DNA from: Flavobacteriales bacterium
Lineage (GTDB): Bacteria; Bacteroidota; Bacteroidia; Flavobacteriales_D; CAJJDF01
NCBI GenBank assembly: GCA_023255335.1
Contig: JALRIS010000024.1
Span: forward strand, 1 to 38,029
DNA length: 38,029 nucleotides
Direction: 5' to 3'
The notes under the pieces: generated by a model
Seen by the model: only the letters and a program-made list of their open reading frames with translations
Databases searched by the model: none
What the model was told of the DNA's origin: nothing
Made by a program: the position numbers and the translations under genes
In this document: positions 3,163 through 37,526 of the stretch, in pieces
Numbering within the stretch: position 1 is the first letter of the stretch
Layout: every line of letters begins with the position of its first letter

Positions 3163-3924
3163 TCACCCTTCCGCCTCAAGCGCTGCTGCCAATTCATCGG
3201 TCATTTCGAGGGTGTGGTACACGACATTTACATCGTCATCTTCCTCCATTTTTTCGATCAATTTTAGTACTTGTTTGGCTTTTTCCACTTCCAGTGCCAT
3301 GGTGGTGGTTGGGATTCGCTGAAGCTCGGTAGTTTTTACCTCAATTTTCATTTCGGCCAATTTCTTTTGCATGTCTCCGTAGCTATCAAACGAAGTGTAA
3401 ATCAATACATCCTCTTCTTGCACGTCTATTTCTTCTAGCCCTGCATCTATCAATTCAAACTCCAAATCTTCTAGCTCCCAGTCTTTTAGTAATTCGCGAG
3501 CGATGGTAAACACTCCTTTTCGGTCAAACATAAACGAAAGCGAACCGTGAGTCCCCAATTCTCCGCCATACTTGCTAAAAACAGCTCTTACATTGGCAAC
3601 TACCCGATTGTTGTTGTCCGATGTAGCTTCTACAAACACCGCAATTCCATTGGTGGCATATCCCTCAAAAGTGTACTCCTGCAAGTCTGCCGCATCGTCT
3701 CCCGAACCTTTTTTGATGGCTCGTTCCATCGTGTCTTTGGGCATGTTGGCACCTTTGGCGTTTTGGATAGCCAATCGCAGCGAAGGGTTAGAATCTGGAT
3801 CGGCACCGCCATCTCTGGCAGCAATTGTGATTTCTTTGATGATACGAGTAAATATTTTTCCTCGTTTGGCATCTTTTGCTCCTTTTTTGTGCTTAATGGT
3901 TGACCATTTACTATGTCCTGACAT
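3163..3924 (-). CDS. yebC: YebC/PmpR family DNA-binding regulatory protein
   Basis: A 253-residue YebC/PmpR/TACO1 family protein. It opens with the family hallmark MSGHSKWSTIKHKKGAKDAKRGKIF. It continues with GGADPDSNPSLRLAI (about 39-53), NMPKDTMERAIKKG (60-73) and a long acidic C-terminal domain with the typical EVxKxxxxLKLIEKMEEDDDVNVVYHT region near the end. Members act as cytoplasmic transcriptional regulators, and some have recently been linked to relief of ribosome stalling. The start at 3924 is fixed by the conserved N-terminus. The gene faces the aminotransferase and is divergent from purN, from which it is 116 bases away. The length is slightly above the usual 240-250. The family is certain; its targets here are unknown. 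Confidence 0.96.
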   Translation of the reverse strand: MSGHSKWSTIKHKKGAKDAKRGKIFTRIIKEITIAARDGGADPDSNPSLRLAIQNAKGANMPKDTMERAIKKGSGDDAADLQEYTFEGYATNGIAVFVEATSDNNNRVVANVRAVFSKYGGELGTHGSLSFMFDRKGVFTIARELLKDWELEDLEFELIDAGLEEIDVQEEDVLIYTSFDSYGDMQKKLAEMKIEVKTTELQRIPTTTMALEVEKAKQVLKLIEKMEEDDDVNVVYHTLEMTDELAAALEAEG

Positions 3925-3949
3925 GTTTGTATTTATTTGTATTCCGACC

Positions 3950-3981
3950 TTGGGCAGAATGTGAATAATCCCTTATCTTTG
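3950..3981 (+). promoter_or_regulatory. Candidate promoter for purN-rnhA
   Basis: TTG at 3950-3952 and an exact TAnnTTTG box (TATCTTTG, 3974-3981) are separated by 21 bases, close to the Bacteroidota -33/-7 spacing. The predicted start near 3988 would leave about 50 bases of leader before purN. Confidence 0.5.
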
Positions 3982-4040
3982 GGCGGTAAAGTTACAAAAT
4001 AACTCCCTAATCAAAAAATCATTTTTGCCGACTGATTGTT

Positions 4041-4613
4041 ATGAAAAAAGTAAAAAACATCCTCATTTTTGTGTCTGGAAATGGCTCTAACATGAGCAAT
4101 CTCATCGAGCATTTTGATTCCAATCCCGAGGTATCGGTTGAAGCGGTTTTTTCGAACAAACCAGCCTGTGTAGGAATCATCAATGCGCAAAAAGCGGGGA
4201 TAAACACCATAGCTTTTACTCCCGAAGAGCTTCACTCTGGAAGAGTAGCCGAATTGGCTCAGCTACTCAATCCCGATTTGATTGTGTTGGCAGGGTTTTT
4301 ACTCAAAATTCCCAAAGAATTTACTGCCACGTTTGAAGGCAAAATCCTGAACGTTCATCCTTCATTACTGCCAAAATTTGGAGGGAAAGGAATGTACGGA
4401 AAACACGTGCACAAAGCAGTGATAGCAGCAGGAGAAACAAAGTCGGGTATTACGTTTCATTTTGTAAACGAACACTATGACGAGGGCAACATCATTGCTC
4501 AGTTTGAATGCCCAATCGCACCCACCGAAAAGGTAGAAACATTACAACAAAAAATACAACAATTGGAGCATACTCATTTTCCGAGTGTGGTAGAAAAACT
4601 ACTTGCCCAATGA
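4041..4613 (+). CDS. purN: Phosphoribosylglycinamide formyltransferase PurN
   Basis: A 190-residue GAR transformylase. It transfers the formyl group from 10-formyltetrahydrofolate to GAR in step three of purine synthesis, in the cytosol. A glycine-rich phosphate loop (SGNGSN, 12-17) begins the Rossmann-like formyltransferase fold. LNVHPSLLP (103-111) carries the catalytic N104 and H106, and YDEGNII (146-152) carries the catalytic D147, matching the Asn-His-Asp triad of the family. The length is normal. The stop overlaps the start of rnhA in an ATGA (4610-4613), so the two are translationally coupled. No other purine genes lie in the window. The start ATG 4041 sits directly before the conserved first beta strand. 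Confidence 0.96.
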   Translation: MKKVKNILIFVSGNGSNMSNLIEHFDSNPEVSVEAVFSNKPACVGIINAQKAGINTIAFTPEELHSGRVAELAQLLNPDLIVLAGFLLKIPKEFTATFEGKILNVHPSLLPKFGGKGMYGKHVHKAVIAAGETKSGITFHFVNEHYDEGNIIAQFECPIAPTEKVETLQQKIQQLEHTHFPSVVEKLLAQ

Positions 4614-5089
4614 GCCATATTTACATATATACAGATGGATCTGCCCTCGGAAACCCTGGGCCAGGAGGCTACGGCATAGTGCTAATGGCAGGCAAGCATT
4701 ACAAAGAACTGAGCGAAGGTTATCGGCACACCACTAACAACCGCATGGAGCTGCTGAGCGTGATTGTAGCACTGGAGCAATTGAAAAAACCAGGGTACAA
4801 GGTTCGGATATTTTCGGATAGTAAATACGTGGTAGATTCGATAGAAAAAAAATGGGTGTTTGGTTGGGTAAAAAAGAATTTTAAAGGCAAAAAAAATGCT
4901 GATTTGTGGAAGCGTTTTTTGGCGATTTATCCCAAGCACCAAGTAGAATTTGTGTGGGTAAAAGGCCATGCAGGAAACAAATACAACGAGGTGTGCGATC
5001 AGCTAGCGGTAGCAGCCGCCCATGGCAAAAACTTAATGGTAGATCAAGGGTACGAAGATTCTCAGAAAGAGGAAAATGGGTTGTTTTAA
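4610..5089 (+). CDS. rnhA: Ribonuclease HI
   Basis: A 159-residue RNase HI that cleaves the RNA strand of RNA-DNA hybrids using two magnesium ions. The catalytic set is complete: D9 (YTDGSALGNPGPGG), E47 (NNRMELLSVI), D70 (FSDSKYVVDSI) and D130 (CDQLAVAAA), plus the flexible-loop H120 (VKGHAGN). A basic handle region with lysines and tryptophans lies at about 81-101 (KWVFGWVKKNFKGKK). I chose ATG 4610 because it gives the standard N-terminus and a 4-base ATGA overlap with purN. Longer readings of this frame run through purN and are not credible. A 127-base gap with degenerate palindromes follows before the convergent orphan gene. Confidence 0.96.
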   Translation: MSHIYIYTDGSALGNPGPGGYGIVLMAGKHYKELSEGYRHTTNNRMELLSVIVALEQLKKPGYKVRIFSDSKYVVDSIEKKWVFGWVKKNFKGKKNADLWKRFLAIYPKHQVEFVWVKGHAGNKYNEVCDQLAVAAAHGKNLMVDQGYEDSQKEENGLF

Positions 5090-5158
5090 GAACTTTTAAT
5101 CAATAAAACGCTTTGTCATTCTCGAGAAAAGCGGAAATCTTGAATTGAGTAATGGTTT

Positions 5159-5206
5159 GTGTATGATGCGTATCCCGAAGGTTGTACACTATGCACTGTG
5201 TTGTGC
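5159..5206. repeat. Inverted-repeat region at the left flank of the orphan gene
   Basis: gtgta (5159-5163) pairs with tacac (5185-5189). The octamer tgttgtgc at 5199-5206 is the exact reverse complement of gcacaaca at 5880-5887, on the far side of the orphan gene. Upstream, 5115-5140 (gtcattctcgag...) looks like a decayed dispersed repeat. The remainder of 5090-5216 shows nothing else I can name. Confidence 0.45.
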
Positions 5207-5216
5207 TTTCGTTCTT

Positions 5217-5861
5217 TTATTTTTCAATATTACTGTAAACCAATCCTTTCCAATACATTTCTTTTTCTGCGTCCAAGGTGTTTACAAATTTCAAATCAAA
5301 TTCGGCTTTAATTATCCCTTTGTTGAACAGTTGTTTATCAATTCTAATTTGCCCTTCTTTCATTCGAAATATTTGTTTCCCAAGGTCAGTAATACTATTG
5401 TAATCAATCCATGCACTAAAAGAATCATTCTTGATTTCAATGTTCAAACTACTATGTGTAGAAACATTGCAAGCCGATTGCCCAAGCATAGAATTGTTTG
5501 CTTGCTTTTTAAAAGTCATAAAGTTTGTACCCGCCCATTCATAAGTCGAAGCTTCAGATTTAATTGAGTGAAACAAATGGGTTGTATCGACAATTGCGTA
5601 GAACGCTTTTAATGAGTCAGGATATATTTTCCCTTCTTCATTTTTCATTTGGTCTATTTCAGGTGGACAAATTCCATCGCAACTTAATTGCCCAAATTTA
5701 TTCTTGTAAACACCTTCATGATAACTCCATCTCTCTTTGAATGAAAAGTCGTTTTCGATATTATCGACCCATTTGATAGAAATCCATTTTGTTTCATCCT
5801 TTTTAGTAAAAGACAAAATTGTCAAACAAGTCAGTATGAGTACAATTGATTTCAGTTTCAT
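5217..5861 (-). CDS. Hypothetical exported protein, orphan
   Basis: A 214-residue protein that I do not recognise. It has a short N-terminal signal sequence (MKLKSIVLILTCLTILSFT), with probable cleavage near residue 19 and no lipobox cysteine. The mature part begins charged (KKDETKWISIKWVDN). It contains two cysteines in the motif CDGICPPEIDQ (about 61-71) and one more in SACNVS (about 130-135). The rest looks like mixed beta strands, with no membrane segment. An extracellular or periplasmic location is likely. Start ATG 5861 gives the signal sequence directly. The gene stands alone between rnhA (convergent) and trpS (173 bases upstream, same strand). It is bracketed by inverted octamers and palindromes, which suggests an inserted single-gene unit (inference). 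Confidence 0.75.
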   Translation of the reverse strand: MKLKSIVLILTCLTILSFTKKDETKWISIKWVDNIENDFSFKERWSYHEGVYKNKFGQLSCDGICPPEIDQMKNEEGKIYPDSLKAFYAIVDTTHLFHSIKSEASTYEWAGTNFMTFKKQANNSMLGQSACNVSTHSSLNIEIKNDSFSAWIDYNSITDLGKQIFRMKEGQIRIDKQLFNKGIIKAEFDLKFVNTLDAEKEMYWKGLVYSNIEK

Positions 5862-7746: not shown

Positions 7747-8467
7747 GTTTGGTTTTGTTCAGTTCGTCAAATTTTTCCTTTACATCTTTTTTGTATTTCC
7801 TAGAAAGAGGAATGGTAGAATTTCTAATTACAACCTCTTGTGAAGTTATTTTATTAATCTTTCGAAGATTTACAATGTAAGACCTATGCACCCTAACAAA
7901 TACTGCCGGATCAAGTGTTTCCTCTATTTGTTTTAGTATTCCGGTAGTGGTTATTTTTCCTTCTGTTGTACAATATGTTATGTAACTACTCGATCCTTCT
8001 ATATAGCCAATATTTCGGTACGGCACTTTTTGAGTTTCTCTATTCTTTTTGATTAAAATAAATTCGTCTTCTTTTTCGAGTATTGCATCGGGATTTGGAG
8101 TTCCAAATATTCTTCGTTTTGCTTTATCTACTGCACTCGTTAGCCTTTCCAAATCTACGGGCTTTACGATATAATCAATGGCGTCAAACTCAAAAGCTTT
8201 GATAGCATGTTTTGTTTGAGACGTGATAAAAATTACATTCGGTTTTACCTCTAACTTTTCTAGCATATCTACCCCGTTTTCATAAGGCATTTCAATATCT
8301 AGCAACATGAGCTCAATATCAGTCCTTTCTATTGTTTCTCTTGCCTCTATGGCATTTGAACAGGCTTTTACTAAATTGAGGGATCCATTTTTTTTCACTA
8401 GGTTGGTGAGAATAAACCTTGAAGTTTCATCATCATCAACGATTATGCACGAAATTAGTCTTGACAT
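7727..8467 (-). CDS. LytTR-family response regulator
   Basis: A 246-residue two-domain transcription regulator. The REC domain spans residues 1-118, with the acidic triad at 11-13 (DDD), phosphoacceptor D57 (LLDIEMP), T82 and K102 (IVKPVD). The LytTR DNA-binding domain spans about 137-235, with the hallmark FVRVHRSYIVN (190-200) and a terminal PLSRKYKKDVKE. ATG 8467 is preferred over TTG at 8494, nine codons earlier, because MSRLISCIIVDDDE is the usual spacing to the acidic pocket. Most such regulators act with LytS-type membrane histidine kinases; none is present here. The following REC and Hpt genes overlap it or one another. A TAnnTTTG box lies 30 bases upstream. Confidence 0.92.
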   Translation of the reverse strand: MSRLISCIIVDDDETSRFILTNLVKKNGSLNLVKACSNAIEARETIERTDIELMLLDIEMPYENGVDMLEKLEVKPNVIFITSQTKHAIKAFEFDAIDYIVKPVDLERLTSAVDKAKRRIFGTPNPDAILEKEDEFILIKKNRETQKVPYRNIGYIEGSSSYITYCTTEGKITTTGILKQIEETLDPAVFVRVHRSYIVNLRKINKITSQEVVIRNSTIPLSRKYKKDVKEKFDELNKTKHENSVN

Positions 8468-8496
8468 TCGGTCGTTGGTTAAAGTGGATATCAAAA

Positions 8497-8504
8497 CAAA
8501 AATA
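8497..8504 (-). promoter_or_regulatory. Candidate -7 box for the phosphorelay genes
   Basis: The minus strand reads TATTTTTG, an exact TAnnTTTG, in the 67-base gap before the LytTR start. No TTG -33 element is present at standard spacing, so this is only suggestive. Confidence 0.3.
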
Positions 8505-25278: not shown

Positions 25279-26193
25279 ATGACACAATTTTTAAGCTATT
25301 TTAAGCGCTATTTTACTCAAGACTTTCATGTATTGAGCCATGTGTTTATAGGCTTATTTATTGCAATCTCAATTGCGCTCAACTATTCGTACGACTTGTA
25401 CGCTACGTATTTTCGAGTGGTAAATTACAACCATTTGGGAGTAATTAAACTATGGGGAATGTATGTTTTCGCCTTCCTTGTTCCTGTTAGTATCCTTGCT
25501 TTTAGTTCTCGTAAGTCAAATCTTACCTATTTGATTCTCGGTGTATTAGGCCTACTTTTTATGGCGATTGATGCCTCTTATTATCTGTTGAAATTTGTAC
25601 GACTCTTGGGCGAAATGATCGAAATTAATGGTTTTGTATATTCTTGTCTTGCCAATATCATTAGTTTATTTTCCATTATACTTCCGCTTACTATTCTTTA
25701 TTACTTAACTCAAAGATTGCGTCCAGGGTTTTACGGGTTAAATCCAAAGGAAGCCAATTTGAAGCCCTACGCAGTCCTTCTTTTACTGATGGTACCTTTG
25801 GTCTTTTTCTCAGCTTTTTTTGATTCAAATTTTTTGTCCTACTATCCCAGCTATAATGCACGAGCGGCCGAGGCTACAGGTCTTTCTCAACCTTTAACTG
25901 TGCTTATTTACGAACTCTGCTACGGTTTTGATTTTTTTTCAGTAGAGCTATTTTTTCGTGGATTTATGGTAGTTGGACTTTCTCGATATTTAGAAAAAAA
26001 TGCCATTTTGCCAATGGTAGCGTGCTACGCATTTTTACATTTTGGCAAACCTATGTGGGAAACAATCGGTTCAGTTTTTGGTGGGTTTGGATTGGGAGTT
26101 TTAGCTTACGAATCCAAAAATATTTATGGTGGATTGATCGTCCATTTAGGGGTAGCTTGGGGAATGGAAATCTCAGCTTTTATATTGAGTTAA
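25279..26193 (+). CDS. CPBP-family intramembrane metalloprotease-like protein
   Basis: A 304-residue protein with about eight hydrophobic helices. The CPBP/Abi (Rce1-like) motifs lie in the last third: FSVELFFRGF (220-229) with E223 and R227, FLHFGKP (252-258) with H254, and GLIVHLGVA (285-293) with H289. In the classical EExxxR motif the first Glu is Val222 here; the second Glu and the Arg are kept. Members act as intramembrane proteases or as tolerance and maturation factors; the role of this one is unknown. Start ATG 25279 lies one base after the mini cargo gene's stop, so the two are co-transcribed. The stop overlaps the converging methyltransferase gene by 14 bases. Confidence 0.85.
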   Translation: MTQFLSYFKRYFTQDFHVLSHVFIGLFIAISIALNYSYDLYATYFRVVNYNHLGVIKLWGMYVFAFLVPVSILAFSSRKSNLTYLILGVLGLLFMAIDASYYLLKFVRLLGEMIEINGFVYSCLANIISLFSIILPLTILYYLTQRLRPGFYGLNPKEANLKPYAVLLLLMVPLVFFSAFFDSNFLSYYPSYNARAAEATGLSQPLTVLIYELCYGFDFFSVELFFRGFMVVGLSRYLEKNAILPMVACYAFLHFGKPMWETIGSVFGGFGLGVLAYESKNIYGGLIVHLGVAWGMEISAFILS

Positions 26194-26911
26194 GGCGCCA
26201 TCGGTACCAACCAAAAGGTGAATTTCTCTTCCAAAGAGGAGTTAACAATTTTTTTCCATACTGTACCCTTTCAAACCCTTTTAGGTCCTTTTGTGTATGA
26301 TGGAAATAAAACTCACTCATTTCTCTTTCATCTAACTCATTATAATACCTTTCGGTACGCTGTTTTGCATAATTTGCTTCTAGCTTATTGGAATAAAAGT
26401 GCGTGTCCAAAAGATGAATTTCTCCCGTATCACTAATCAAACTTTTCAGCCTAGACATTAATTGGTCAAAATTTGGGAAGTAGTGAGCCGAAGCGTTTAA
26501 TACGATAACATCAAATTTGTTCGCAAAAACCGCACGAAAGATATCTCCGTACCCAAACTCTAAGTTCTCACGAACAAAGACTCTATTTGCTTGCTCCAGT
26601 TCCGGAAAATTAATGTCAAGACCCAACACCTGAGCCGAGGTTACTTGGGCTATTTCATTCGAAAACCATCCGTTGCCGCATCCAAGTTCCAAAACATGCT
26701 CGATTGAATTCATTTTCTGCAAATAGCTGCAAAACTTTTGGCTATTTATCCGCCTAAACCGCCATTGCGCGTATTGAGGATGACTTTTTGGTGGATAAGG
26801 AAGAAGTCGAACTATCTCGTCAGAAACCACAAAACCTTCTTTCTTTCTTGCGGCTAAATAGAGGGTTGAAAAATGAGCGTCAACTGGGGTGAAAATTCTA
26901 ATCGATTTCAT
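26180..26911 (-). CDS. Class I SAM-dependent methyltransferase
   Basis: A 243-residue enzyme with the SAM-binding motif I VLELGCGNGWFSNEIA (about 73-88), the acidic loop GLDINFPELEQA (96-107), and the post-I segments FGYGDIF and FDVIVLNASAHYFPNFDQLM. It belongs to the Methyltransf_11/25-like group and acts in the cytosol on an unidentified acceptor. It is last in the polysaccharide operon, so a sugar or a lipid-linked intermediate is likely (inference). ATG 26911 gives a 14-base overlap with the upstream methyltransferase; the TTG at 26935 is less likely. The C-terminal part is rich in aromatic residues (PFGWYRWRL). Confidence 0.85.
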   Translation of the reverse strand: MKSIRIFTPVDAHFSTLYLAARKKEGFVVSDEIVRLLPYPPKSHPQYAQWRFRRINSQKFCSYLQKMNSIEHVLELGCGNGWFSNEIAQVTSAQVLGLDINFPELEQANRVFVRENLEFGYGDIFRAVFANKFDVIVLNASAHYFPNFDQLMSRLKSLISDTGEIHLLDTHFYSNKLEANYAKQRTERYYNELDEREMSEFYFHHTQKDLKGFERVQYGKKLLTPLWKRNSPFGWYRWRLNSI

Positions 26912-27701
26912 TTGATTTTTTTTGAAAAGTAGCAATGTAGTAATCTCCTATTCCCGGAGAAATGAATAATCGAAGGAAAGAGTTGAGCCTTAAAATAACG
27001 CTAAAAATTCTAGGTCTTTGGATGCCAAAGTTATCGTTTTGAGGAAGAAAGATTCCCAAGCTCTCCGCTTTTACAAAATCAAATTGCAAGGAAAGATTCT
27101 TCTTCAATTTCTTCAAGGAATGGTACCATACAGAAATCTTCTCTCCTTCCACATTAGCCAAAACAGGACCGCCTGACAGCCTTCTGAATGCTTTTTTTCT
27201 GTTTTTCAATCCCAGAATCCATTCGCCCGGATATAGCTTTGGCATAATCACGACAGTCACCTTTCCTTTTGCTCTTAGTAAGTGTGAGAGAGAATTAAGA
27301 GTTTTTTCGGGGTTTTCAACACAATTAAGCCCTCCAAAATTGGAAAAGACATGGTCAAATTTTCTGGGTTGAAGCGTTTTTAAAGAATCGTAAGAGAGCC
27401 TATTAAAAGTTAATCTCCCACCATAATCATTGAAGGTAATTTTTTTCTTAAAAAACACCTCTGAACCCTGAGACAAATCGGTGGCTAAGACAGTAAAACC
27501 CTGTTTTGCCAAAAACACTGCATCAATTCCCGAACCTGCATTTATTTCTAATATCTCCGTACCTTTGTCAACAAATTTGAGCAAATGACGATACACCAAA
27601 TTGCGCTGCCATACCGTTTTGTTATTCCCTAAATGAAGGTCTTCATACTCCTGATAAATAGAAGAGAAGCCTCTGTCTACTTTCTCAGAATTTGCTTTCA
27701 T
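26898..27701 (-). CDS. Class I SAM-dependent methyltransferase
   Basis: A 267-residue methyltransferase. Motif I reads ILEINAGSGIDAVFLAKQG (about 50-68), where the usual Gly-x-Gly start is an Asn-Ala-Gly variant. It is followed by VLATDLSQG (71-79), FDHVFSNFGGLNCVENPEKTL (114-134) and LLRAKGKVTVVIMP. The C-terminal 100 residues are basic and hydrophobic and might contact membrane or lipid-linked substrate (inference). It overlaps the radical SAM gene by 17 bases and the next methyltransferase by 14. The two methyltransferases share a fold but little obvious sequence, so they are not a recent duplication. Confidence 0.84.
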   Translation of the reverse strand: MKANSEKVDRGFSSIYQEYEDLHLGNNKTVWQRNLVYRHLLKFVDKGTEILEINAGSGIDAVFLAKQGFTVLATDLSQGSEVFFKKKITFNDYGGRLTFNRLSYDSLKTLQPRKFDHVFSNFGGLNCVENPEKTLNSLSHLLRAKGKVTVVIMPKLYPGEWILGLKNRKKAFRRLSGGPVLANVEGEKISVWYHSLKKLKKNLSLQFDFVKAESLGIFLPQNDNFGIQRPRIFSVILRLNSFLRLFISPGIGDYYIATFQKKSNEID

Positions 27702-29154
27702 TGCTATTTTCCATTTTGACTAGTTGCCTTCCTTCTTTTACTCCCATTATCCAGTTGTAGGGTAACTTTCCAATTAATTTCAATTGATTTTTACTAAATT
27801 CTTTGGGAGTTTTTAACCCCTTCTTTAGAGCTTGGACACCTTTCGTACTCTGAAAAATTTTGTGTGTGTAACTGTGTAGTTTTTTATAAAAATTCTGATT
27901 GAAAGTCCCTGAAAACATCATCGCTAAATCATTAGAATCTGTCCAGTTTGTTTTATCTGTGAGTTGCGCCTTCACCGTTTCGTAAAACTTAGTTCCTGGC
28001 AATGGATAAGATACTGAAATTCCAATATCATCGGGTTTTGCTCTTTTTATTAAATCAATCGTTTTATTGATATCTTCCTTTGTTTCGCCCAGGTACCCGT
28101 ATTGAATAAAGAAAGCAACACGCACCCCTTTTTGCTGAAGTAACTTAGTTGATTCTTCAATTTGATGAATGGTAGTACCTTTATCCATCGCATCCAAAAT
28201 AGATTGCGAGCCACTCTCGGCTCCGAGCCAAACCTCTCTCAATCCTGAACTAACAAGCGCATCTATAGTATTTTCTTTAAGTAATAAATCTGCCCGGCTC
28301 TGAATTTTAAACTCAATTTTAAGGGATTCTTCTTTAAGCGACAGATCAAAGTTTTGAACCCAATTTGGTTTTAATCCAAAAATGTCGTCACACATCCAAA
28401 AATTAGTCACACCATGGGATTCAACCAGTAACTTTATTTCCTGAACAACTCTTTCGGGAGATCTGGAATTGTAGCGATTTCCATAAATAGGTTTTGCACA
28501 CCAATTGCATTTGTAAGGGCAACCTCTCGTAGTGGCAATATTCAATGCAAAGGGAAGTTTACTTGTCCAAGCTCGCTTGTATGCCTCCACATCAATTAAG
28601 TCCCAAGCAGGCTGTGGCAATGTATCGAGGTCTCTTATTACTGGTCTTCTTCCATTGTTCTTCACCTCTCCCTTGTAGGAGTACGCGATACCCTGTACAG
28701 TTTCAAGTGTCGCATTTTGCTTTAACTGATTGATTGTCTCGAGCAATGAAATTTCACCTTCTCCAAGCAACACTACATCGGCACCTTTTTGTATGTAGTG
28801 AGCAAAATGATCTGTGGAATCAGAACTAGATACAATCACTGTGCACCCTTCCGCCTTGGCAATTCGAATCATTTCAAAAGCTGCTTCCCTCATGTTGGTC
28901 AGGCACATTTTTGTTAAGTAATTGAATCCATCGTCATACAGAACCAAAAATTTAGGCTTCATTTCTTTCAGAACAGGTACTATTTCGGCCGGTCCTTCCC
29001 TTAGTCCTACATCAAACAAACTTACTTTCACATTGTTTTCTCTTAAAAAACTGGCAGCATAAATTGTTCCTAATGGTGGATAAGGCATTCCTATTTCCCA
29101 TTGTTTGGGATCCATTTGGTAATAATAACTGTGGCTAAATAATACGTCAATCAT
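27685..29154 (-). CDS. B12-binding-domain radical SAM protein
   Basis: A 489-residue enzyme. The N-terminal part (about 1-150) resembles a cobalamin-binding domain, with PYPPLGTIYAASFLREN and GADVVLLGEGEISLLET. The radical SAM core starts at ATTRGCPYKCNWCAKPIYG, with the [4Fe-4S] ligands C212, C216 and C219. It continues to WLGAESGSQSILDAMDKG (about 310-327) and the GYLGETKEDI segment. Members use SAM radical chemistry, often with B12, to methylate or rearrange lipids, natural products and sugars. There is no DxHxGG-type cobalamin motif that I can see, so B12 dependence is not assured. It lies 8 bases after the nucleotidyltransferase gene, inside the polysaccharide operon. Confidence 0.9.
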   Translation of the reverse strand: MIDVLFSHSYYYQMDPKQWEIGMPYPPLGTIYAASFLRENNVKVSLFDVGLREGPAEIVPVLKEMKPKFLVLYDDGFNYLTKMCLTNMREAAFEMIRIAKAEGCTVIVSSSDSTDHFAHYIQKGADVVLLGEGEISLLETINQLKQNATLETVQGIAYSYKGEVKNNGRRPVIRDLDTLPQPAWDLIDVEAYKRAWTSKLPFALNIATTRGCPYKCNWCAKPIYGNRYNSRSPERVVQEIKLLVESHGVTNFWMCDDIFGLKPNWVQNFDLSLKEESLKIEFKIQSRADLLLKENTIDALVSSGLREVWLGAESGSQSILDAMDKGTTIHQIEESTKLLQQKGVRVAFFIQYGYLGETKEDINKTIDLIKRAKPDDIGISVSYPLPGTKFYETVKAQLTDKTNWTDSNDLAMMFSGTFNQNFYKKLHSYTHKIFQSTKGVQALKKGLKTPKEFSKNQLKLIGKLPYNWIMGVKEGRQLVKMENSNESKF

Positions 29155-29162
29155 AGAGGAAT

Positions 29163-30074
29163 TTAATTTTTATCTAGCTTATTACTGGCTTGAATGTGAA
29201 TACTTTCGAGGTGATTCAAAATTTTTTTCTGATAGTTTCCTGGATGGTTTTTAGAAACATAAAGCTGTGTTTTGAATGCAAGGTCATAGTCTTGTGGATC
29301 GTATCCTTTTTTCTTCCATTTGTTTTGCCATCTCCTGTCAGTAAGTTTCATCAAGGAGGTATTCAACCAGTTCGAACCCAAACAGAACTCCATTATTCTT
29401 TTTAGGAAGGAGGGGCGTTGTTTAGAAATCTGTTTTCTTTCAAATGTGAAATTGGGTAAATAAGAATGAACCCAGTCATTTTGGGCGAGTAACTCTTGGT
29501 AGTACCACCTTCCTTTATTTGGAATCAAAGTGGCCAATTCCACAGCAGTGAAATAATTATTTTCTTCGATGTTCAAATGATTTTCGGAAAGAAAATAATT
29601 CATACAAAAACTATGTTGAAGCCGGACTAGAAAGGTGAGTTTTTTCAATAAATGAAGTAAAGTTCTGGAGGTCCACAATTGATTTTCTGTGGTAATCACA
29701 AAAAAATCAATGTCGGTGGTCTTGTCTGCATAATATTTTGATAATGACCCCGAAATTGCCACCATACGAACGAACGGAAAACACATAATAAACCAAGAAA
29801 TAAACTGAGCTCTTTTCATGCGCTTTTGTGCATACTTCATCCCCTGCAATTTGCGGTCTACTCTCTCGGGAAGATTATGGAGCAGAAAACAATCTTTGAA
29901 ACAGAAAATTAGACCTTCTGAGGTCATTGCATTCAGCTCTTTTTTTAACTCAGTTTCCTCAACTTTTATCTCCAAGAATTTTTGAATCTCAACAAGAGTC
30001 AAAGGAAATTTGAAGTAATCAAAGTAGCCTAGTACTTTGGTTATCTCGGTTCGTATGTTTGTTGAGTTTGTCAA
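29163..30074 (-). CDS. Nucleotidyltransferase-fold protein
   Basis: A 303-residue protein from the chosen start. An N-terminal helical segment (VLGYFDYFKFPLTLVEIQKFL) looks like a winged-helix-type domain. Then comes the polymerase-beta-type nucleotidyltransferase motif AISGSLSKYYADKTTDIDFFVIT, with the GS pair at 109-110 and the metal-binding D121 and D123. The remainder is basic. It may transfer a nucleotide or activated group to a sugar or lipid (inference). No ATG exists near the N-terminus. I prefer the TTG at 30074, one base after the upstream stop; the TTG at 30107 would overlap the upstream gene by 32 bases. In the operon it precedes the radical SAM gene, a pairing that suggests a joint modification step. 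Confidence 0.78.
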   Translation of the reverse strand: MTNSTNIRTEITKVLGYFDYFKFPLTLVEIQKFLEIKVEETELKKELNAMTSEGLIFCFKDCFLLHNLPERVDRKLQGMKYAQKRMKRAQFISWFIMCFPFVRMVAISGSLSKYYADKTTDIDFFVITTENQLWTSRTLLHLLKKLTFLVRLQHSFCMNYFLSENHLNIEENNYFTAVELATLIPNKGRWYYQELLAQNDWVHSYLPNFTFERKQISKQRPSFLKRIMEFCLGSNWLNTSLMKLTDRRWQNKWKKKGYDPQDYDLAFKTQLYVSKNHPGNYQKKILNHLESIHIQASNKLDKN

Positions 30075-30075
30075 T

Positions 30076-31884
30076 TCACGTAAATATATAGAAAATAGTT
30101 CGGACAATTATTTTGATATCTAGCCAAACACTTTGCTTCTCGGCATAGAGTTTATCTAATCTAAACCGAATAGTCAAATCGGCTGGATGATGTATTATTC
30201 CTTTGTATCCGTTTGCTTGCGCCAAACCTGTCAACCCAGGTTTGATACTTAATCGTTCGGAGAATCCATCCATTTTTTTGTTCCACTCTTCTTCTTCGCT
30301 TACCATAAGTGGTCTTGGACCTACCACACTCATTTCTCCTAACAACACATTGATAAATTGAGGTAATTCATCAATGGAATATTTTCTTAAGATCGCTCCA
30401 AACCTCGTGATTCGGGTGTCTCCATCTATGGCGGGTAAATAGTTTGCTTCAGAATTGTGAACCATTGTTCTGAGTTTAAAACATTTAAAAACACGGTAGT
30501 TCTGTCCTACTCTATTTTGTACAAAAAGTGGAAATGAGCGTGTATCAAGGTAGATAAAAAATCCAAGAAGAGGCAATAACCACCACAAAATAAGCAAAAT
30601 AACTAGAGAAGAAATGATAATATCCAATCCTCTTTTTATGGTTCTAGTAAAACTAAACGGATATGGTTCCAAAAAAAGCATCATGGAATTGAATCCCACA
30701 AAGGCAATTATTCCAATCTGTCTGTTCAAATAACTTTCGGTAAAAAATGAGACTAACAAGATGAGAGAAAAAATCACCAGCAAGCGATTTCCAGATTTCC
30801 ATCCAACCAACAAATTATGGTAGAAGAGCACAATCAGAAGAAACAATCCAAAGAAACCTGTCTCTAAGAGACTTTGTATGTATTGGTTGTGTGAATTATA
30901 CCCCAAATATCCAGAATTTTTTTTACCTGGCTTACCTGTATAAAAATTTCGAACTATCAATTGATTGTCAATTTCATCTTGCGCATCTCCTGGGCCAACC
31001 CCAAATAAAAATTTGGTTCTATCTTCTTCAATCAGTTTCAAACTTATGTTCCACAACTCTTTTCTCAATGTAAATCCGTCAAAATAGGTTCCGGGTGTCA
31101 CTTGTTTTTGAATCGAAAAAAAAGACTCGAGATTTACATCCTGAAATCGAGTTGTGATTGATTGTTGGTTTACCAAAAACCCTACACTCACTATAAGAAT
31201 TAGCACCCCAAGCGTCAGCAGTTTTTTTTGAACCGTAGAAATAAAATAAAGAGTTAAAAAAAGGAGTAAAATCAAGAATATCTTAGAGGAAAGTAACATC
31301 AGAATAAGTGTTGTAAATCCAATTTGAACCAGATTGGATATTGCTGGAGTCTTCCTGTTTTTCTCAATAAGAACAAGCAACGAAACCATATAAAGTAGTG
31401 AGTAATAAATAGCATTTCCCTCAAAAACACTCACTAAATTGTGATAGAAAAAAGGCTCAGAAGTATCAAAAAAATTGGAGGAAATAGTAGCGTAACCAAG
31501 CAAAAACAACCCAAAACCAGACATTCCGATGGAATACCACCCTAATGCCTGTTCCATTGTTTTTTTGGGATCGGACATCGGCAAATTGTACCAAAACAAA
31601 GGAAGCAGTAAAAACCCTAGTTTTTTTTCGATTTCGAAACTTGTTCTCCCTAAGTTGTCATCAACTAATAGGTAAATCGCATGAAGACAAAAGTAAGCTA
31701 TGGACAGAACAACAAAGGTGTTTTTCCATTTGAACTCTCTTCTTTTGATACCATAAAAAAGAGAAAAACCACACAACAGATAAATGCTAAGAGCATTAAA
31801 CTTAGAGGGAAATGCAAGGCTAAACATTACCAAAAATGACAACGCAGCGCTCGTAAAGTCTATTTTATTATATCCTTTATGCAT
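30076..31884 (-). CDS. Fusion: O-antigen polymerase/ligase domain plus phosphoglycosyltransferase domain
   Basis: A 602-residue protein with two units in one open frame. Residues 1 to about 405 are a polytopic Wzy/WaaL-like domain with about eleven hydrophobic helices and the periplasmic-loop signature YNSHNQYIQSLLETGFFGLF (329-348). Residues about 414-602 are a bacterial sugar-transferase (WcaJ/WbaP/PglC-type) domain: KRGLDIIISSL (417-427), QNRVGQNYRVFKCFKLRTM (456-474), SIDELPQFINVLLGEMSVVGPRP (503-525) with the catalytic pair D505-E506, and KPGLTGLAQANGY (548-560). The first part would polymerise or ligate glycan outside; the second would load the first sugar phosphate onto undecaprenyl phosphate inside. 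No frameshift is needed. It overlaps the upstream glycosyltransferase by 8 bases. Confidence 0.9.
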   Translation of the reverse strand: MHKGYNKIDFTSAALSFLVMFSLAFPSKFNALSIYLLCGFSLFYGIKRREFKWKNTFVVLSIAYFCLHAIYLLVDDNLGRTSFEIEKKLGFLLLPLFWYNLPMSDPKKTMEQALGWYSIGMSGFGLFLLGYATISSNFFDTSEPFFYHNLVSVFEGNAIYYSLLYMVSLLVLIEKNRKTPAISNLVQIGFTTLILMLLSSKIFLILLLFLTLYFISTVQKKLLTLGVLILIVSVGFLVNQQSITTRFQDVNLESFFSIQKQVTPGTYFDGFTLRKELWNISLKLIEEDRTKFLFGVGPGDAQDEIDNQLIVRNFYTGKPGKKNSGYLGYNSHNQYIQSLLETGFFGLFLLIVLFYHNLLVGWKSGNRLLVIFSLILLVSFFTESYLNRQIGIIAFVGFNSMMLFLEPYPFSFTRTIKRGLDIIISSLVILLILWWLLPLLGFFIYLDTRSFPLFVQNRVGQNYRVFKCFKLRTMVHNSEANYLPAIDGDTRITRFGAILRKYSIDELPQFINVLLGEMSVVGPRPLMVSEEEEWNKKMDGFSERLSIKPGLTGLAQANGYKGIIHHPADLTIRFRLDKLYAEKQSVWLDIKIIVRTIFYIFT

Positions 31885-32947
31885 TGTCTATAAGTTCTTT
31901 TAATGAATGATGAACGTGCTTAAAACTATACACTTGTTCGAGTTTTTCTTTATTCTTGTTCACAGAATTTTCGTGTGGTCTTAGTCCTGAATCCAATAAA
32001 TCTCGTAGTTCTTGATATGATGAAAAGTAAAGCGCATTATCTTCCAGCACATCTCGATTAAACGGGTTGTTGTGGGCTACAATTTGGCATCCACAAGCCA
32101 TTGCTTCTAGTAAAGAAGGGTTAGTTCCACCTACCGAATGTCCGTGAAAATAAAGGTTAGAATAATATCGGAGCGAATTTAGTTCTTCGAAATTATAGTT
32201 AGGTCCCAAAAATACAACTGAATCGGCATACAGTTTAGAAAGATATTTTCCATACGGTGTATTCATATTCCCAACAACAACCAGTTTTTCATCTCTGTTT
32301 TTTCTGTGCCCTCTAATAATTGTTTCAATGTTGTTTTCGGGTTCCATTCGGGCAATTACTAGGTTGTACTTTTTGGGTATCAATTTGTACTTTTTGGGTA
32401 CGTTGCTATCAAATTGTTGAATCAAATTTGCCCCATAAGCGATAAACTGTGAGTCTATTGCATATTCTTCGCTCAAGTATTCCTGAATCCCTCTAGAATC
32501 AGCGATGAGAATGTCGCTTTGATTTACCGCCCACTTTTCCGCTCTTTTCAAAAACTTTTTAACTAGCTTGCCATATTTGGCTCGTTTCCATTCCTGGCCA
32601 TCCATATTTGTAATAATTATTGTTTTTTTTGGAAACAAAAATCCCCAAATAGAACTACTTGTATACCCCAATTGAAATAATACATCAAATTGTTGTTTTC
32701 TTGCATGAATCACCGCGCCCAAATCATACACAAACTGTCCGGCACTTCCTATCCATTTTTCTGGATCCCAACATCTCACAATTTCGACACCTTTCCACGA
32801 ACTCTCCTTGAAAGGATGAGAAGAAGAATTATAGACCACAACTTCCACACCTTCCTCCACCAAAAACTGCGCAAAGTGCATTGCAAATTGCTCAAAACCT
32901 CCATATTCATTGGGGATTCCTCTTGTACCCATTATTCCGATCCTCAT
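31877..32947 (-). CDS. DUF1972-type glycosyltransferase (rhamnosyltransferase-like)
   Basis: A 356-residue GT-B glycosyltransferase. It begins MRIGIMGTRGIPNEYGGFEQF, the family opening of DUF1972 enzymes that add a sugar, often rhamnose, to a lipid-linked intermediate. GYTSSSIWGFLF and NMDGQEWKRAKYG follow, and the donor-site segment is HSVGGTNPSLLEAMACG near residues 268-284. ATG 32947 is chosen because the conserved N-terminus starts there and it overlaps the upstream stop in an ATGA; the ORF can be read back to 33004. A 21-bp-period duplication encodes PKKYKLI-PKKYNLV in the middle. The sugar specificity is not determined. Confidence 0.9.
   Translation of the reverse strand: MRIGIMGTRGIPNEYGGFEQFAMHFAQFLVEEGVEVVVYNSSSHPFKESSWKGVEIVRCWDPEKWIGSAGQFVYDLGAVIHARKQQFDVLFQLGYTSSSIWGFLFPKKTIIITNMDGQEWKRAKYGKLVKKFLKRAEKWAVNQSDILIADSRGIQEYLSEEYAIDSQFIAYGANLIQQFDSNVPKKYKLIPKKYNLVIARMEPENNIETIIRGHRKNRDEKLVVVGNMNTPYGKYLSKLYADSVVFLGPNYNFEELNSLRYYSNLYFHGHSVGGTNPSLLEAMACGCQIVAHNNPFNRDVLEDNALYFSSYQELRDLLDSGLRPHENSVNKNKEKLEQVYSFKHVHHSLKELIDNA
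32364..32400. repeat. Short direct repeat inside the DUF1972 glycosyltransferase gene
   Basis: A 16-base sequence (ttgtactttttgggta) occurs at 32364-32379 and again at 32385-32400, a 21-base period. On the coding strand this is a seven-residue duplication that keeps the frame. Confidence 0.8.
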
Positions 32948-34026
32948 AGTTTTGCTAGTATGGATTGATAACACTCTTTGGTCCTTTCTGCTGCTTTTCT
33001 CCATGTGTAGTTGGATTCAATCACTTGTTTTAACTCATCTGAAAATTCTCTCTTGAGTGCTCCAATTATTGCTTCTTTTATAGATTGAACGGATTGCGGT
33101 TCGCAATAGTTGGCATAATTTCCAAAGTAATCCTTGGTATCACCGTTGGGAGAAACGACAATTTTACACCCCAAGTAAGCTGCCTCCAGCGAAGAGAGAC
33201 CAGTTGTTTCGAACCAACTAGGTAAAATATGAATGGCTGAGCTCAAGTAATAAGGAATCAATTGCTTTTGCTTCACCCTAGTAACAAAAGTCACTTTCTC
33301 CGAAGCTATTTTTTTACACTCCTCGAAATATGACTTATGATTGGGAGCTGGATTTCCAATAATCATCAAGGAAACATCCAACTGGTTTGCTGCACGTATC
33401 AAGTTTAGCTGATTCTTTCTAGGCTCTATTTGCCCTACACAAATCAACTGATTTGACACCCTTTCCGTATCTTCTGTGGAACGAAATTCCTGGGTATTAA
33501 TTCCATTGGGCACAAGATATTCTGCCACCTCTATTCCATAACTCTTTGATACTCTTTTTGCCTCACTTGCAGAGTTTGGCAAAATCGCCTTGGCATGTAT
33601 TAATACCTCCCGAATTGATTTTTTTTGACCTTTCCAAACGTAAGGAAAGTAAGTTAGTTTTTCCTTTCCCAACCCATGTTTCAACGTAGTTTTTAAATAT
33701 TCTATTCCATCTAGTCCAACCAACCTAGTCGCTAATCCCATTCTGGAATATGGACTCAGATATTTGTAAAAATCATACTGAACAAAAATGGTTGATACCA
33801 CGTAAGGCACATCCGATTTAGTGGTATGAAATAAGATGTCTGCGGGGCGAGTAAGATTAAAAAAATGAAGGAGGTCATAGTTCATATAGTGCACCTCTTT
33901 TTGCTGATCAAAAATATCTACTTCTACACCTATTTTCTTGAGTTCTTTGGCAGTTTCTACCATCTGAACTGTATCTCCACCGGGAACCGAAAAAATCGTT
34001 TTTCTACTTATAAATAATATTCTCAT
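32944..34026 (-). CDS. Family 4-type glycosyltransferase
   Basis: A 360-residue GT-B enzyme. It has an N-terminal acceptor domain (MRILFISRKTIFSVPGGDTVQ) and a C-terminal donor domain with VGQIEPRKNQLNLIRA (about 195-210). The E-x7-E motif WFETTGLSSLEAAYLG (about 267-282) binds the nucleotide sugar. It adds one sugar to the growing lipid-linked repeat on the cytoplasmic side. It overlaps both neighbours by 4 bases (ATGA), meaning tight coupling with the Wzy-like gene before it and the DUF1972 enzyme after it. The sugar is not predictable. Confidence 0.92.
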   Translation of the reverse strand: MRILFISRKTIFSVPGGDTVQMVETAKELKKIGVEVDIFDQQKEVHYMNYDLLHFFNLTRPADILFHTTKSDVPYVVSTIFVQYDFYKYLSPYSRMGLATRLVGLDGIEYLKTTLKHGLGKEKLTYFPYVWKGQKKSIREVLIHAKAILPNSASEAKRVSKSYGIEVAEYLVPNGINTQEFRSTEDTERVSNQLICVGQIEPRKNQLNLIRAANQLDVSLMIIGNPAPNHKSYFEECKKIASEKVTFVTRVKQKQLIPYYLSSAIHILPSWFETTGLSSLEAAYLGCKIVVSPNGDTKDYFGNYANYCEPQSVQSIKEAIIGALKREFSDELKQVIESNYTWRKAAERTKECYQSILAKL

Positions 34027-35231
34027 TTCATAAAATAGTTAGAGGTTCTAAATGCGTGCAGTTTCGGTACAAATGCCATAATCCAAAAAACATATTCCTT
34101 TTCATTGAATAAGTAACTCCCCGTAAATTGATAGACAAAAAGGCTCACAAATAAGCTAAATTGGAACATATTTTGGTAGACTTTCAGTCTGATAAAAAGA
34201 CCTATTTGTACTAACAATTTCAAGCTAAACCCAACAATTCCATAAACGACCATTGTTTCTGCCATTGCATTGGGTAATCTGGCAACTTCTGGCATATTCG
34301 CAAATTTATAGTAATAAATGAGAGTTTCTCTTCCTACAATCTTGAACTGACCAAGTCCAATGCCAACCAATGGATTGTGCTTATTGAGTACCTGCCAGCC
34401 AATTTCAAACGCCTCGTAGGTTCTTCCTCTTCCTGATGTATCATTGCCAGCTAGCAAATTTTGAATTCGAAAAGCCAATGGATTCTCTGGAAAAAAAACG
34501 AACAAGCCTAGTAAAGCTATACTTCCTACTAGCATCACAATTATCAATTTATTTCTCGTAGGTTTCAATCTCATTAATTTTACTGAATGAACAACCAATA
34601 CCATCCCTAATGAAATGACAATTACTGCGAGAATACCTAGTGAAAAGGAAAAGAGTAAACTAAACATCAACGAGAGTAAGTAAAAGAAGTTTTTGACAGA
34701 CCACTCTTTTAACAAGGTCCAAAAGTAGTAGTAAAACAGCGGTAAAATCAAAAAGGAATAATGTGAAGCTTCAAGTTCAAACATCTTGAGTCGAGGCAAA
34801 ACCTCATAGCCTGGAGTAAAAGGCTCCAAATACCAAAAATGAGAAAGTTGGAAGCCCGAAAGCAGAGAAATGAATGCGAGTATTGTTAGTCCAAAGTTGA
34901 CTTCAGTAATTCTTTGGACAAAAGCAGAAATATCAGAGGATCTTTTGTAAAACGAATAAAAGGAAACAAGAAAAATGAGTAGGGTAAAAAGAACCAAAGT
35001 TGAGACAATAAAATCTTTGAAAACCACTCCTTGATAAAAATGAATGAGAGTATAAGTAACAAAAAAATAGAAAGGCAAAAACAACCTCAACAACTTGTTG
35101 TTTTTCAATAAATAAAAAGCAAAAAATGGAGCCAAAATGATTGAGAATTTCAATCCATAAGGCAGACCAACCCTGTTGAAAAAGAATATAAGGAAGATAA
35201 TCCCAAGAGTTGAATCAATTATTTTTTTCAT
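34023..35231 (-). CDS. Wzy-like O-antigen/exopolysaccharide polymerase
   Basis: A 402-residue polytopic protein with about eleven hydrophobic helices. A large loop at about 255-315 contains NDTSGRGRTYEAFEIGWQVLNKHNPLVGIGLGQF, the pattern of the extracytoplasmic loop of Wzy polymerases and O-antigen ligases (arginines plus a GxGxGQF-type end). It would join repeat units on the outer face of the inner membrane. This is the second such domain in the operon, the first being fused to a sugar transferase at 30076-31884. It overlaps the flippase gene by 4 bases. Sequence alone does not separate polymerase from ligase. Confidence 0.83.
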   Translation of the reverse strand: MKKIIDSTLGIIFLIFFFNRVGLPYGLKFSIILAPFFAFYLLKNNKLLRLFLPFYFFVTYTLIHFYQGVVFKDFIVSTLVLFTLLIFLVSFYSFYKRSSDISAFVQRITEVNFGLTILAFISLLSGFQLSHFWYLEPFTPGYEVLPRLKMFELEASHYSFLILPLFYYYFWTLLKEWSVKNFFYLLSLMFSLLFSFSLGILAVIVISLGMVLVVHSVKLMRLKPTRNKLIIVMLVGSIALLGLFVFFPENPLAFRIQNLLAGNDTSGRGRTYEAFEIGWQVLNKHNPLVGIGLGQFKIVGRETLIYYYKFANMPEVARLPNAMAETMVVYGIVGFSLKLLVQIGLFIRLKVYQNMFQFSLFVSLFVYQFTGSYLFNEKEYVFWIMAFVPKLHAFRTSNYFMK

Positions 35232-36697
35232 TCTGTCAGGATTTTAAAGCTGGTTGTTTGGTGTTTGAAATAAACAAGAAAAATACTGAACAAGCAAAGG
35301 GTAAAGCAGAGTATTTTAATGAGCCAATCATCCAGTATGGCGATTCCGCTTCCCCAAACTGCCGGGAGGAAAAGAATGGCAACCGACAGGGCAGATGGCC
35401 GAGTTTTATCAAATCTTTTGGAGACCGAATAATGTAGCCAAAACATTCCCGGAATTATGGAAACTGCTAGCCCGATAACCATAGAAATAAGAGAATTGAA
35501 GACAAACAATCCTACTAAAATTCCGACAAAATTGAGGCCCGTAAAGATCAGCACCATTCTCAATCCAAATTTCTCATGCCCAGATGCGTTTAAAAATAAA
35601 TTGGGGATTGTAGAGAATATCAAGAAAAACTCGAAAACCGAAAACCATTTTACGTATTGCTCTATTTCAAGGTAGTTCTCTTGACCTAGCCACATGGTAA
35701 AAAATGGTTTGGAAATAAGACTAAAAATAGCGAGGAGGGTGAACGAAATGACGAGAGATACATTTCGAGTCCGGAGATACAAATCAAATACCAGAGATTC
35801 GTCATCTTTATTCTTTGCCACTTGAGGAAATATCCAGGAGGTTATGGCCCCAAATGCCATGTGAATGTGATTGAATAAAGTTGCGACAATGGCATAAAAA
35901 GAGAGAGCAGCCAAACCAAATTTGTACGAAACCAACAGACGGTCTCCCTGGTATACAATGATGATGGCAATACTTTGAAACCAAATAAATAGCGAATAGC
36001 TAATCTCGTGTTTTATCAAAGTACGATTGAGCGAAAAGCTAAACTTGTAAAACGGAATAAATCTTGCTAAAAGCTTGTAGTTTGCAACAATTCCTACCAA
36101 GATGATACTTGCATTAAAACACAAAACAAATACGACATTGTGAGTAGTAAAGGCAATAACAATACTTCCTAAAACCGTGATGATTTTGAGAAGAATTGAA
36201 AGTATTGTCACGTACTTAAAGTCCTCAAAAGCTCGATAAACATTGTACAAAATTTGCTCCGTAAGTTTCCCAAACAAAAGAATCATTCCTATCAGGATGG
36301 ACACAATAAGTCTGGATTTGACCACTGGATTCTCGACAAACCAATCGTAAAAATAAACACCCACACAAAGCCCCGAAGCAACTAACAAGCTGGCTAGCAA
36401 AATAACAACCGTGAAAGAGAGATTGGTGTTGAGTGTATCAGAAATCTGTCGATTATCTTGTTTGGCTATTGCTATGGAAATATGCTTGTAAGTGGAAAAA
36501 TTTAGCCCCAAATTAAAGGCTTGCATAACTATAACGATAGAATTTACCAACATCCAAATTCCGTAATCTTCGGCTCCTAACTGGGCCAAAAAAACAGGTA
36601 TAGAAATAAACAAAATTGTGGGACCCAAGAGTACCTCAATCACGTTCCAAATGGAATTTTGCAAATTACGGGATGTAAGTAATTTGTTAAACTTCAT
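35228..36697 (-). CDS. Wzx-type polysaccharide flippase
   Basis: A 489-residue MOP-superfamily transporter with about fourteen hydrophobic helices. The opening SRNLQNSIWNVIEVLLGPTILFISIPVFLAQLGAEDYGIWMLV is typical of PST/Wzx proteins, followed by charged cytoplasmic loops (KHISIAIAKQDNRQ). It flips undecaprenyl-diphosphate-linked repeat units across the inner membrane. ATG 36697 is chosen over a GTG at 36730; it overlaps the Wzz-like gene by 11 bases and the Wzy-like gene by 4. The length is normal. Confidence 0.9.
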   Translation of the reverse strand: MKFNKLLTSRNLQNSIWNVIEVLLGPTILFISIPVFLAQLGAEDYGIWMLVNSIVIVMQAFNLGLNFSTYKHISIAIAKQDNRQISDTLNTNLSFTVVILLASLLVASGLCVGVYFYDWFVENPVVKSRLIVSILIGMILLFGKLTEQILYNVYRAFEDFKYVTILSILLKIITVLGSIVIAFTTHNVVFVLCFNASIILVGIVANYKLLARFIPFYKFSFSLNRTLIKHEISYSLFIWFQSIAIIIVYQGDRLLVSYKFGLAALSFYAIVATLFNHIHMAFGAITSWIFPQVAKNKDDESLVFDLYLRTRNVSLVISFTLLAIFSLISKPFFTMWLGQENYLEIEQYVKWFSVFEFFLIFSTIPNLFLNASGHEKFGLRMVLIFTGLNFVGILVGLFVFNSLISMVIGLAVSIIPGMFWLHYSVSKRFDKTRPSALSVAILFLPAVWGSGIAILDDWLIKILCFTLCLFSIFLVYFKHQTTSFKILTE

Positions 36698-37526
36698 GGG
36701 TTGGGTTTTTGTACCATTGAAGGAATACACTTGAAAAAAGAACCAACAAAATGGCTACACTTCCGTATTTCTTGAGCTTCGTTTTATTTTGCTCCCTCTT
36801 GGTAATCTCTATTGGCTGAAATGCTTTCAATAAGGCTATAGAATTGAGGTCGCTTAATCGATTCTCCAGAGAGATTAGTTCTTTTTGTCGCTCTTTGGCT
36901 AAGTACAATAACTCAATAACATTCACTGAGTCTCGGCAAGCAGAAGAAGCTAATAACTCATCAATACGCGCCAAATCTCCTTTTACGAAAGAGAGTGTAT
37001 TTTGGTAATCCGTTATTTCTTTTTGAGCCACAGCATTGTTAGCCGAGTCGCTCAGGATATACTTTAACAAACCATTTTGGATGGTTTGAATGTCCTTCTT
37101 ATCCTCACACTCGAGGTAAACATAAAATGGAATTCGCTCAAAAGTAAAATCTTGATGCAAAGGACTATTCACTATGTTTTTTGCCGAAATTGTTCGGATT
37201 TCCTTTGCTTGTTCCAAGGTGATATCAAGAACATTTGCCAATTCTGCGTGTTGGGCATGACCAACAAGTTGTTCCAAATAAAAAATCAAATCACCATACA
37301 CTTTTTTATGTACGAAGTTGTAGGTAAAACTTGCTTTGGAACGATAATACGTTGTTGATTGTCTGGCGCTTAGTAAAAAAAGTAACGTACTGATTACAAG
37401 AATAAAAACTCCTGTTTTCCAAAAATTGGATAGTCCCAATAAGAGGCTGCGTATAAATTCGACAAAAAAGTCGACCGATTCTCGAAGAAATTTTTGTGTA
37501 GAAAATGATGAGTTACTTTTTTCCAT
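36687..37526 (-). CDS. Wzz-like two-helix membrane protein (chain-length determinant type)
   Basis: A 279-residue protein with one hydrophobic helix at about 37-55 and a second at about 254-270. Between them is a periplasmic, largely helical and coiled-coil-like domain (SLENRLSDLNSIALLKA near 220). This is the topology of polysaccharide co-polymerases such as Wzz and Wzc N-termini. There is no C-terminal tyrosine-kinase domain and no clear proline-rich segment before the second helix, so it is a short or divergent member. It is first in the ten-gene operon and probably controls chain length or assembles the Wzy complex (inference). The 135-base gap upstream shows no clear minus-strand promoter. 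Confidence 0.72.
   Translation of the reverse strand: MEKSNSSFSTQKFLRESVDFFVEFIRSLLLGLSNFWKTGVFILVISTLLFLLSARQSTTYYRSKASFTYNFVHKKVYGDLIFYLEQLVGHAQHAELANVLDITLEQAKEIRTISAKNIVNSPLHQDFTFERIPFYVYLECEDKKDIQTIQNGLLKYILSDSANNAVAQKEITDYQNTLSFVKGDLARIDELLASSACRDSVNVIELLYLAKERQKELISLENRLSDLNSIALLKAFQPIEITKREQNKTKLKKYGSVAILLVLFSSVFLQWYKNPTHEV

Follow-up and report, generated by a model that had tools for sequence, protein, structure and literature searches.

A single gene in the analysed stretch of DNA (38,029 nucleotides, hereafter the window) joins a Wzy/WaaL-type membrane domain to a monotopic phosphoglycosyltransferase (PGT) domain, and this fusion is confirmed as genuine. The gene (30076..31884, minus strand; 602 codons plus stop) is open from its ATG at 31884 to the stop at 30076–30078, in agreement with the original prediction of an uninterrupted 602-codon frame, which had left the strand unstated. 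Our full reading, to which we assign a probability of roughly 60%, is that the product is a bifunctional inner-membrane protein that starts and finishes glycan assembly in a Wzx/Wzy-type operon, that it stems from a single merger, and that it brings a benefit in stoichiometry and as a fail-safe. Bifunctionality, with both activities predicted from the sequence and a structure model, is well supported; what we infer is that each half is active, which sugar is used, what benefit results, and whether the role is that of a polymerase or a ligase.

Pfam profiles matched both expected families above their curated cut-offs in this one protein, Wzy_C at residues 192–351 (30832..31311; 51.7 bits against 31.7, E 1e-13) and Bac_transf at residues 417–601 (182 bits against 27, E 7.6e-54). 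The Wzy/WaaL-type half (residues 1–404; 30673..31884) is intact relative to unfused homologues. The monotopic PGT half (residues 412–602; 30079..30651) comprises a re-entrant helix (412–448) and a PglC-like core with the catalytic dyad D505-E506 (30367..30372); all of these features lie on the minus strand. Between the halves is a short linker of ~7 residues (405–411; 30652..30672, minus strand), close to the junction originally placed at 30640–30670. The motif YNSHNQYIQSLLETG (residues 329–343) and the D505-E506 pair, both singled out beforehand, were found. The description as a complete PglC/WcaJ-type domain stood in part: the monotopic PGT core is complete, but it is of the small-PGT type, without the N-terminal bundle and DUF of the large PGTs (LgPGTs).

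Structure prediction of the whole protein, one of the checks proposed at the outset, gave an AlphaFold model (49 rows; pLDDT 91, pTM 0.84) with a WaaL-like domain followed by the re-entrant helix and the PglC-like cytosolic core carrying D505-E506. Approximately 12 predicted TM helices precede the junction, the last ending at residue 403, and the re-entrant helix begins at 412. The loop between the ninth and tenth helices (residues 249–333) holds R274 and H332 in the model and would be periplasmic if the N-terminus is inside; since the number of TM helices is even, R274/H332 are predicted outside and D505/E506 inside, each on the correct face of the membrane. This polytopic fold with a large, putatively periplasmic loop bearing R274 and H332 is consistent with a WaaL/Wzy enzyme (Wzy_C, GT-C superfamily). 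Foldseek returned PglC (E 3e-10), the WaaL ligase (PDB: 7TPG; E 3e-6), and also WbaP, with no others below 0.001. When a profile of Wzy1 homologues was compared with the PDB, 7TPG was the sole match, and R191, R265, and H313 aligned with K201, R274, and H332 of the fusion. We take Arg191, Arg265, and His313 of WaaL (C. metallidurans numbering) to be catalytic. Two of the three are kept, R274 (codon 31063..31065) and H332 (codon 30889..30891), both invariant in 25 homologues, whereas Arg191 is replaced by Lys at K201 (codon 31282..31284; all three on the minus strand). The fold is shared with 7TPG (TMt 0.61), although identity is 16%.

The PGT half is 35% identical to PglC of Campylobacter (PDB: 8E37/8G1N) in the structural match and shares its re-entrant helix, DE dyad, and PRP motif; unlike the fusion, PglC is a stand-alone protein. 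Among the large PGTs of the WcaJ/WbaP type, to which WbaP belongs as a structural match, EPS_sugtrans and WcaJ were the best NCBIfam matches, through the C-terminal core only. In contrast to these enzymes the fusion has neither the four-helix bundle nor the DUF that precede the core: no PF13727 match was obtained, and the N-terminal half is Wzy_C instead. The absence of the LgPGT N-terminal domains explains why the fusion falls far below the full-length EPS_sugtrans/WcaJ cut-offs (TIGR03023: 219 bits against 411, C-terminal part only). The monoPGT superfamily has a bifunctional class with extra domains at either end (PMC10942596); this Bi-PGT class (O'Toole et al. 2021, via PMC10942596) likewise couples a monoPGT core to another functional domain at one terminus. 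The fusion has the monoPGT core with DE dyad and re-entrant helix (Bac_transf at 182 bits, PglC fold) and a second functional domain in the same chain (Wzy_C and WaaL fold, in five genomes), and by architecture it is a Bi-PGT member with both activities predicted. What sets it apart within the class is the partner, a polytopic enzyme of the Wzy/WaaL type with an active site predicted on the opposite membrane face. No description of a monoPGT paired with a Wzy/WaaL-type partner was found in the literature searched, a search that lay outside the class-defining survey (O'Toole 2021).

The fusion is rare. Full-length copies were found in 5 of 399 genomes of the order, with the best ~three candidates per genome scored, and their distribution is patchy (2/6 genomes in the source's family, 3/26 in a Crocinitomicaceae genus). 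The fused counterparts are 599–603 aa long; the one from the same genus is 54% identical, and the three from the Crocinitomicaceae genus are 41–44% identical (Flavobacteriales/Crocinitomicaceae contigs CALLII010000070.1, CANLIL010000006.1, JAGNZC010000004.1, and JAHEIL010000002.1). Both Wzy_C and Bac_transf were matched in all five proteins. The order- and phylum-wide searches considered the best ~three candidates per genome, and the scan of GTDB relied on two peptide patterns; separately evolved fusions whose Wzy halves have diverged could therefore have escaped. Searches of viral contigs revealed no relatives of the fusion, the viral structure library gave no match below E 0.001, and on plasmids no place covered 80% of the query. 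That an assembly or sequencing error joined two genes could be suspected from the fragmented source assembly (247 contigs); however, the same unbroken fusion is present in four other assemblies at 41–54% identity, and we reject this reading as having almost no probability. A frameshift or stop artefact at the junction is likewise ruled out, because four independent assemblies have the frame uninterrupted and because dN/dS on either side of the junction is far below 1.

Overall, dN/dS was 0.17–0.36 in the Wzy half and 0.09–0.22 in the PGT half where dS was unsaturated. Three close fusion sequences gave 0.22–0.35 and 0.09–0.10, respectively, and the window copy against its congener gave 0.17 and 0.11, with dS near saturation. 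Values this far below 1 show that both halves are under purifying selection as proteins. In each half the catalytic residues are the same in 5/5 fusions and match those of unfused enzymes. The operons of the three Crocinitomicaceae genomes are mosaic (locus L068, ~3200–5500 and 8000–8500), and within the PGT half identity drops from 96 to 79% between genomes G299 and G075, suggestive of an exchange near the junction.

The fusion is the sixth gene of a seven-gene core operon on the minus strand, which begins with a Wzz-like candidate co-polymerase (36687..37526), followed by a Wzx-type flippase (35228..36730), a separate Wzy_C protein termed Wzy2 (34023..35231), a GT4 glycosyltransferase (32944..34026), a DUF1972/Cps2T-like glycosyltransferase directly upstream of the fusion (31877..33004), the fusion itself, and p314, a nucleotidyltransferase-like protein (29163..30107). 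The genes around the fusion all lie on the same strand and overlap one another or are separated by ≤8 bases. The gene order is the same in all five fusion genomes, the fusion being gene six of seven in each, and in one locus the contig begins within the Wzz-like gene. The Wzz-like protein has no Pfam match, and its assignment comes from size, position, and two terminal hydrophobic segments. With Wzx, Wzy-type, Wzz-like candidate, PGT, and glycosyltransferase genes together, the operon has the composition of a Wzx/Wzy-dependent pathway. The separate Wzy-like protein noted in the original prediction is indeed present (Wzy_C at 34 bits).

The premise that priming and finishing enzymes are normally separate proteins is also correct; their genes frequently overlap or sit side by side within one operon. 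An unfused operon, Wzz-Wzx-Wzy2-GT4-DUF1972GT-Wzy1-smallPGT-p314, is conserved in Saprospiraceae, Bacteroidales, other Bacteroidota, and a MAG labelled Neomarinimicrobiota; it has the same genes, mostly in the same order, except that the one fused gene of the window is represented by two, Wzy1 and PGT, which often overlap. Thirteen loci showed the DUF1972 glycosyltransferase, Wzy1, and a separate short PGT in succession, with Wzy2; in three further loci Wzy1 was followed by an LgPGT and Wzy2 was absent; and seven (L086, L089, L094, L100, L101, L103, and L106) had no PGT between Wzy1 and p314, so that initiation must come from elsewhere there. As a rule the unfused PGT frame is shifted by one from that of Wzy1, and the two genes overlap or are ≤~50 bases apart, exact starts being uncertain. 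Because two neighbouring genes are the usual state, the fused state is read as derived, and the frequent adjacency or overlap points to a merger of neighbours.

Quick trees, computed without bootstrap, are in agreement with this. The five fused PGT cores formed one clade (SH-aLRT 99) inside a group with all 15 Wzy-adjacent short PGTs (83), apart from the other stand-alone small PGTs sampled, and the five fused proteins also formed one clade in the Wzy tree (100). By these trees the fusion appears to have arisen once, and we propose that neighbouring wzy1 and pgt genes, overlapping or abutting in relatives, were joined in frame. Descent from a large PGT that lost its N-terminal domain, an origin suggested by G006 and G009, would fit the Wzy tree, in which the sister of the fused clade is a group of Flavobacteriaceae Wzy1 proteins, several with neighbouring LgPGTs (89). 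This origin is less favoured, since in the PGT tree the fused cores cluster with the Wzy-adjacent short PGTs (aLRT 83) and Wzy2 and p314 accompany only the short-PGT form.

Several other long proteins were encountered in these searches. In L093:5024-7273 and L097:5013-8513 (749+ and 1166 aa), a Wzy1-type domain is joined to another kind of large polytopic membrane domain; they were rejected as further Wzy-PGT fusions, the partner being no PGT. Long PGT frames in G421 (788 aa) and L099 (628 aa) are no Wzy fusions either. L143:5072-7438 encodes a protein of 788 aa in which a family-2-like glycosyltransferase is joined to a complete LgPGT. The Neomarinimicrobiota operon is present as two near-identical copies of the Bacteroidota operon (L081 and L098) in the MAG Candidatus Neomarinimicrobiota (BH26), through contamination, strain mixture, or transfer.

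In the proposed mechanism, the N-terminal half would act as a WaaL/Wzy-type enzyme of the GT-C superfamily, taking its donor, an Und-PP-linked glycan, at a periplasmic site formed around R274 and H332. Past the final TM helix the chain would be back in the cytosol and, through the linker, enter the monotopic PGT core, whose re-entrant helix and D505-E506 would serve to convert an NDP-sugar to Und-PP-sugar on the cytosolic face. As both active sites look complete in the sequence and each is predicted on its proper face, one chain with both activities is expected; it would open the repeat unit inside and consume the lipid-linked glycan outside. Cps2T is a rhamnosyltransferase that extends a glucose primer by the second sugar. 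The adjoining transferase resembles it (184.9 bits against the Cps2T profile, below the equivalog cut-off of 500), so the PGT is possibly WcaJ-like in specificity, and a glucose primer is plausible by analogy.

The likely benefit would be 1:1 stoichiometry together with a fail-safe, because a truncation or frameshift in the finishing half would also remove the starter and thus avoid Und-P trapping. Und-P is trapped by loss of late steps and not by loss of the initiator (PMC12826051), which would make the order of finisher at the N-terminus and starter at the C-terminus a natural fail-safe. The broader proposal, held tentatively and at well under even odds, is that of a start-finish enzyme, which would open the Und-P cycle on the cytosolic side of the membrane and close it on the periplasmic side, tying initiation to consumption, with domain order as a genetic safeguard against Und-P sequestration; split overlapping genes may achieve the same by translational coupling. 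The question bears on whether the enzymes at the two ends of Und-P-linked glycan assembly, the first and the last, work together physically across the membrane. That a natural fusion exists alongside a widespread split form of the same operon is Rosetta-stone evidence that such enzymes may do so, and the fusion offers a single-chain object for testing coupling, stoichiometry, and Und-P trapping through a cut at a defined linker.

Whether the Wzy half finishes as a ligase or as a polymerase is a nearly balanced matter. The original reading as a ligase or second polymerase is fair, as the two Wzy_C proteins of the operon differ clearly: the WaaL-type His and one Arg are retained in the fusion, and Wzy2 lacks the His. 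The Wzy half could instead be the repeat-unit polymerase, with Wzy2 as a ligase or a polymerase for a second linkage, an alternative we place just short of even. Wzy_C spans both roles, and in some clusters with a separate LgPGT and no Wzy2, such as G006 and G018, Wzy1 is the sole Wzy-like protein within the DNA region examined, which points to a polymerase there. This assignment is opposed by the resemblance of Wzy1 to WaaL, its only PDB match, and by the Wzy2 profile, which matched nothing in the PDB. In G176 the Wzy2-GT4 block is 67–79% identical between conserved flanks of 88–96%; Wzy2 varying jointly with a glycosyltransferase, like polymerases in serotype switching, fits Wzy2 as the polymerase. 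Poly_export (OPX, PF02563; Wza-type) was not found in the four genomes of the genus (G000–G003), so a Wza-type capsule is unlikely in G000 and G001 and an acceptor-linked glycan more likely there. On these sequence comparisons we lean slightly towards a ligase or transferase.

The linkage itself may have no special role, a small indel having joined overlapping co-operonic genes whose enzymes work as before. Where PGT and Wzy1 are neighbours, their genes frequently overlap or abut in different frames and could be joined by a small indel; the fusion is of single origin as well as scarce. The split form is much more common, and seven operons even lack the adjacent PGT, which makes this neutral merger a serious rival. 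Coupling of initiation to polymerisation, as first envisaged, may exist, but obligate coupling is doubtful on the same grounds. Against neutrality, the fusion has been kept across two families at 41–54% amino-acid identity in the same operon with both halves selected, and we regard the neutral account as less likely than not. Still less probable is a catalytically dead half serving as scaffold or regulator of the other. The N-terminal bundle and DUF of LgPGTs are structural and regulatory in WbaP (PMC10942596), and the Wzy half might stand in for them, while other PGTs of the genome could back up initiation; however, the invariant catalytic residues and purifying selection on both halves speak against such a loss. 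Local recycling of the carrier lipid, the other function first suggested, is unlikely for the fusion itself, because Und-PP, once released, has to be dephosphorylated by BacA/PAP2 and flipped by DedA/DUF368 (PMC12826051), and the protein has no phosphatase or flippase domain.

Downstream of the fusion, homologues of p314 (L074–L106) share invariant S-G-S and D-x-D residues of a nucleotidyltransferase. The window copy has no full Pfam match (AlphaFold pLDDT 88), and its nearest PDB folds, weak at E >= 0.01, are MntA-type and antibiotic nucleotidyltransferases. A B12-binding-type radical SAM protein and two methyltransferases (26180–29154) continue from the operon; G001 has the radical SAM protein at 78% identity, and G415 has it too.
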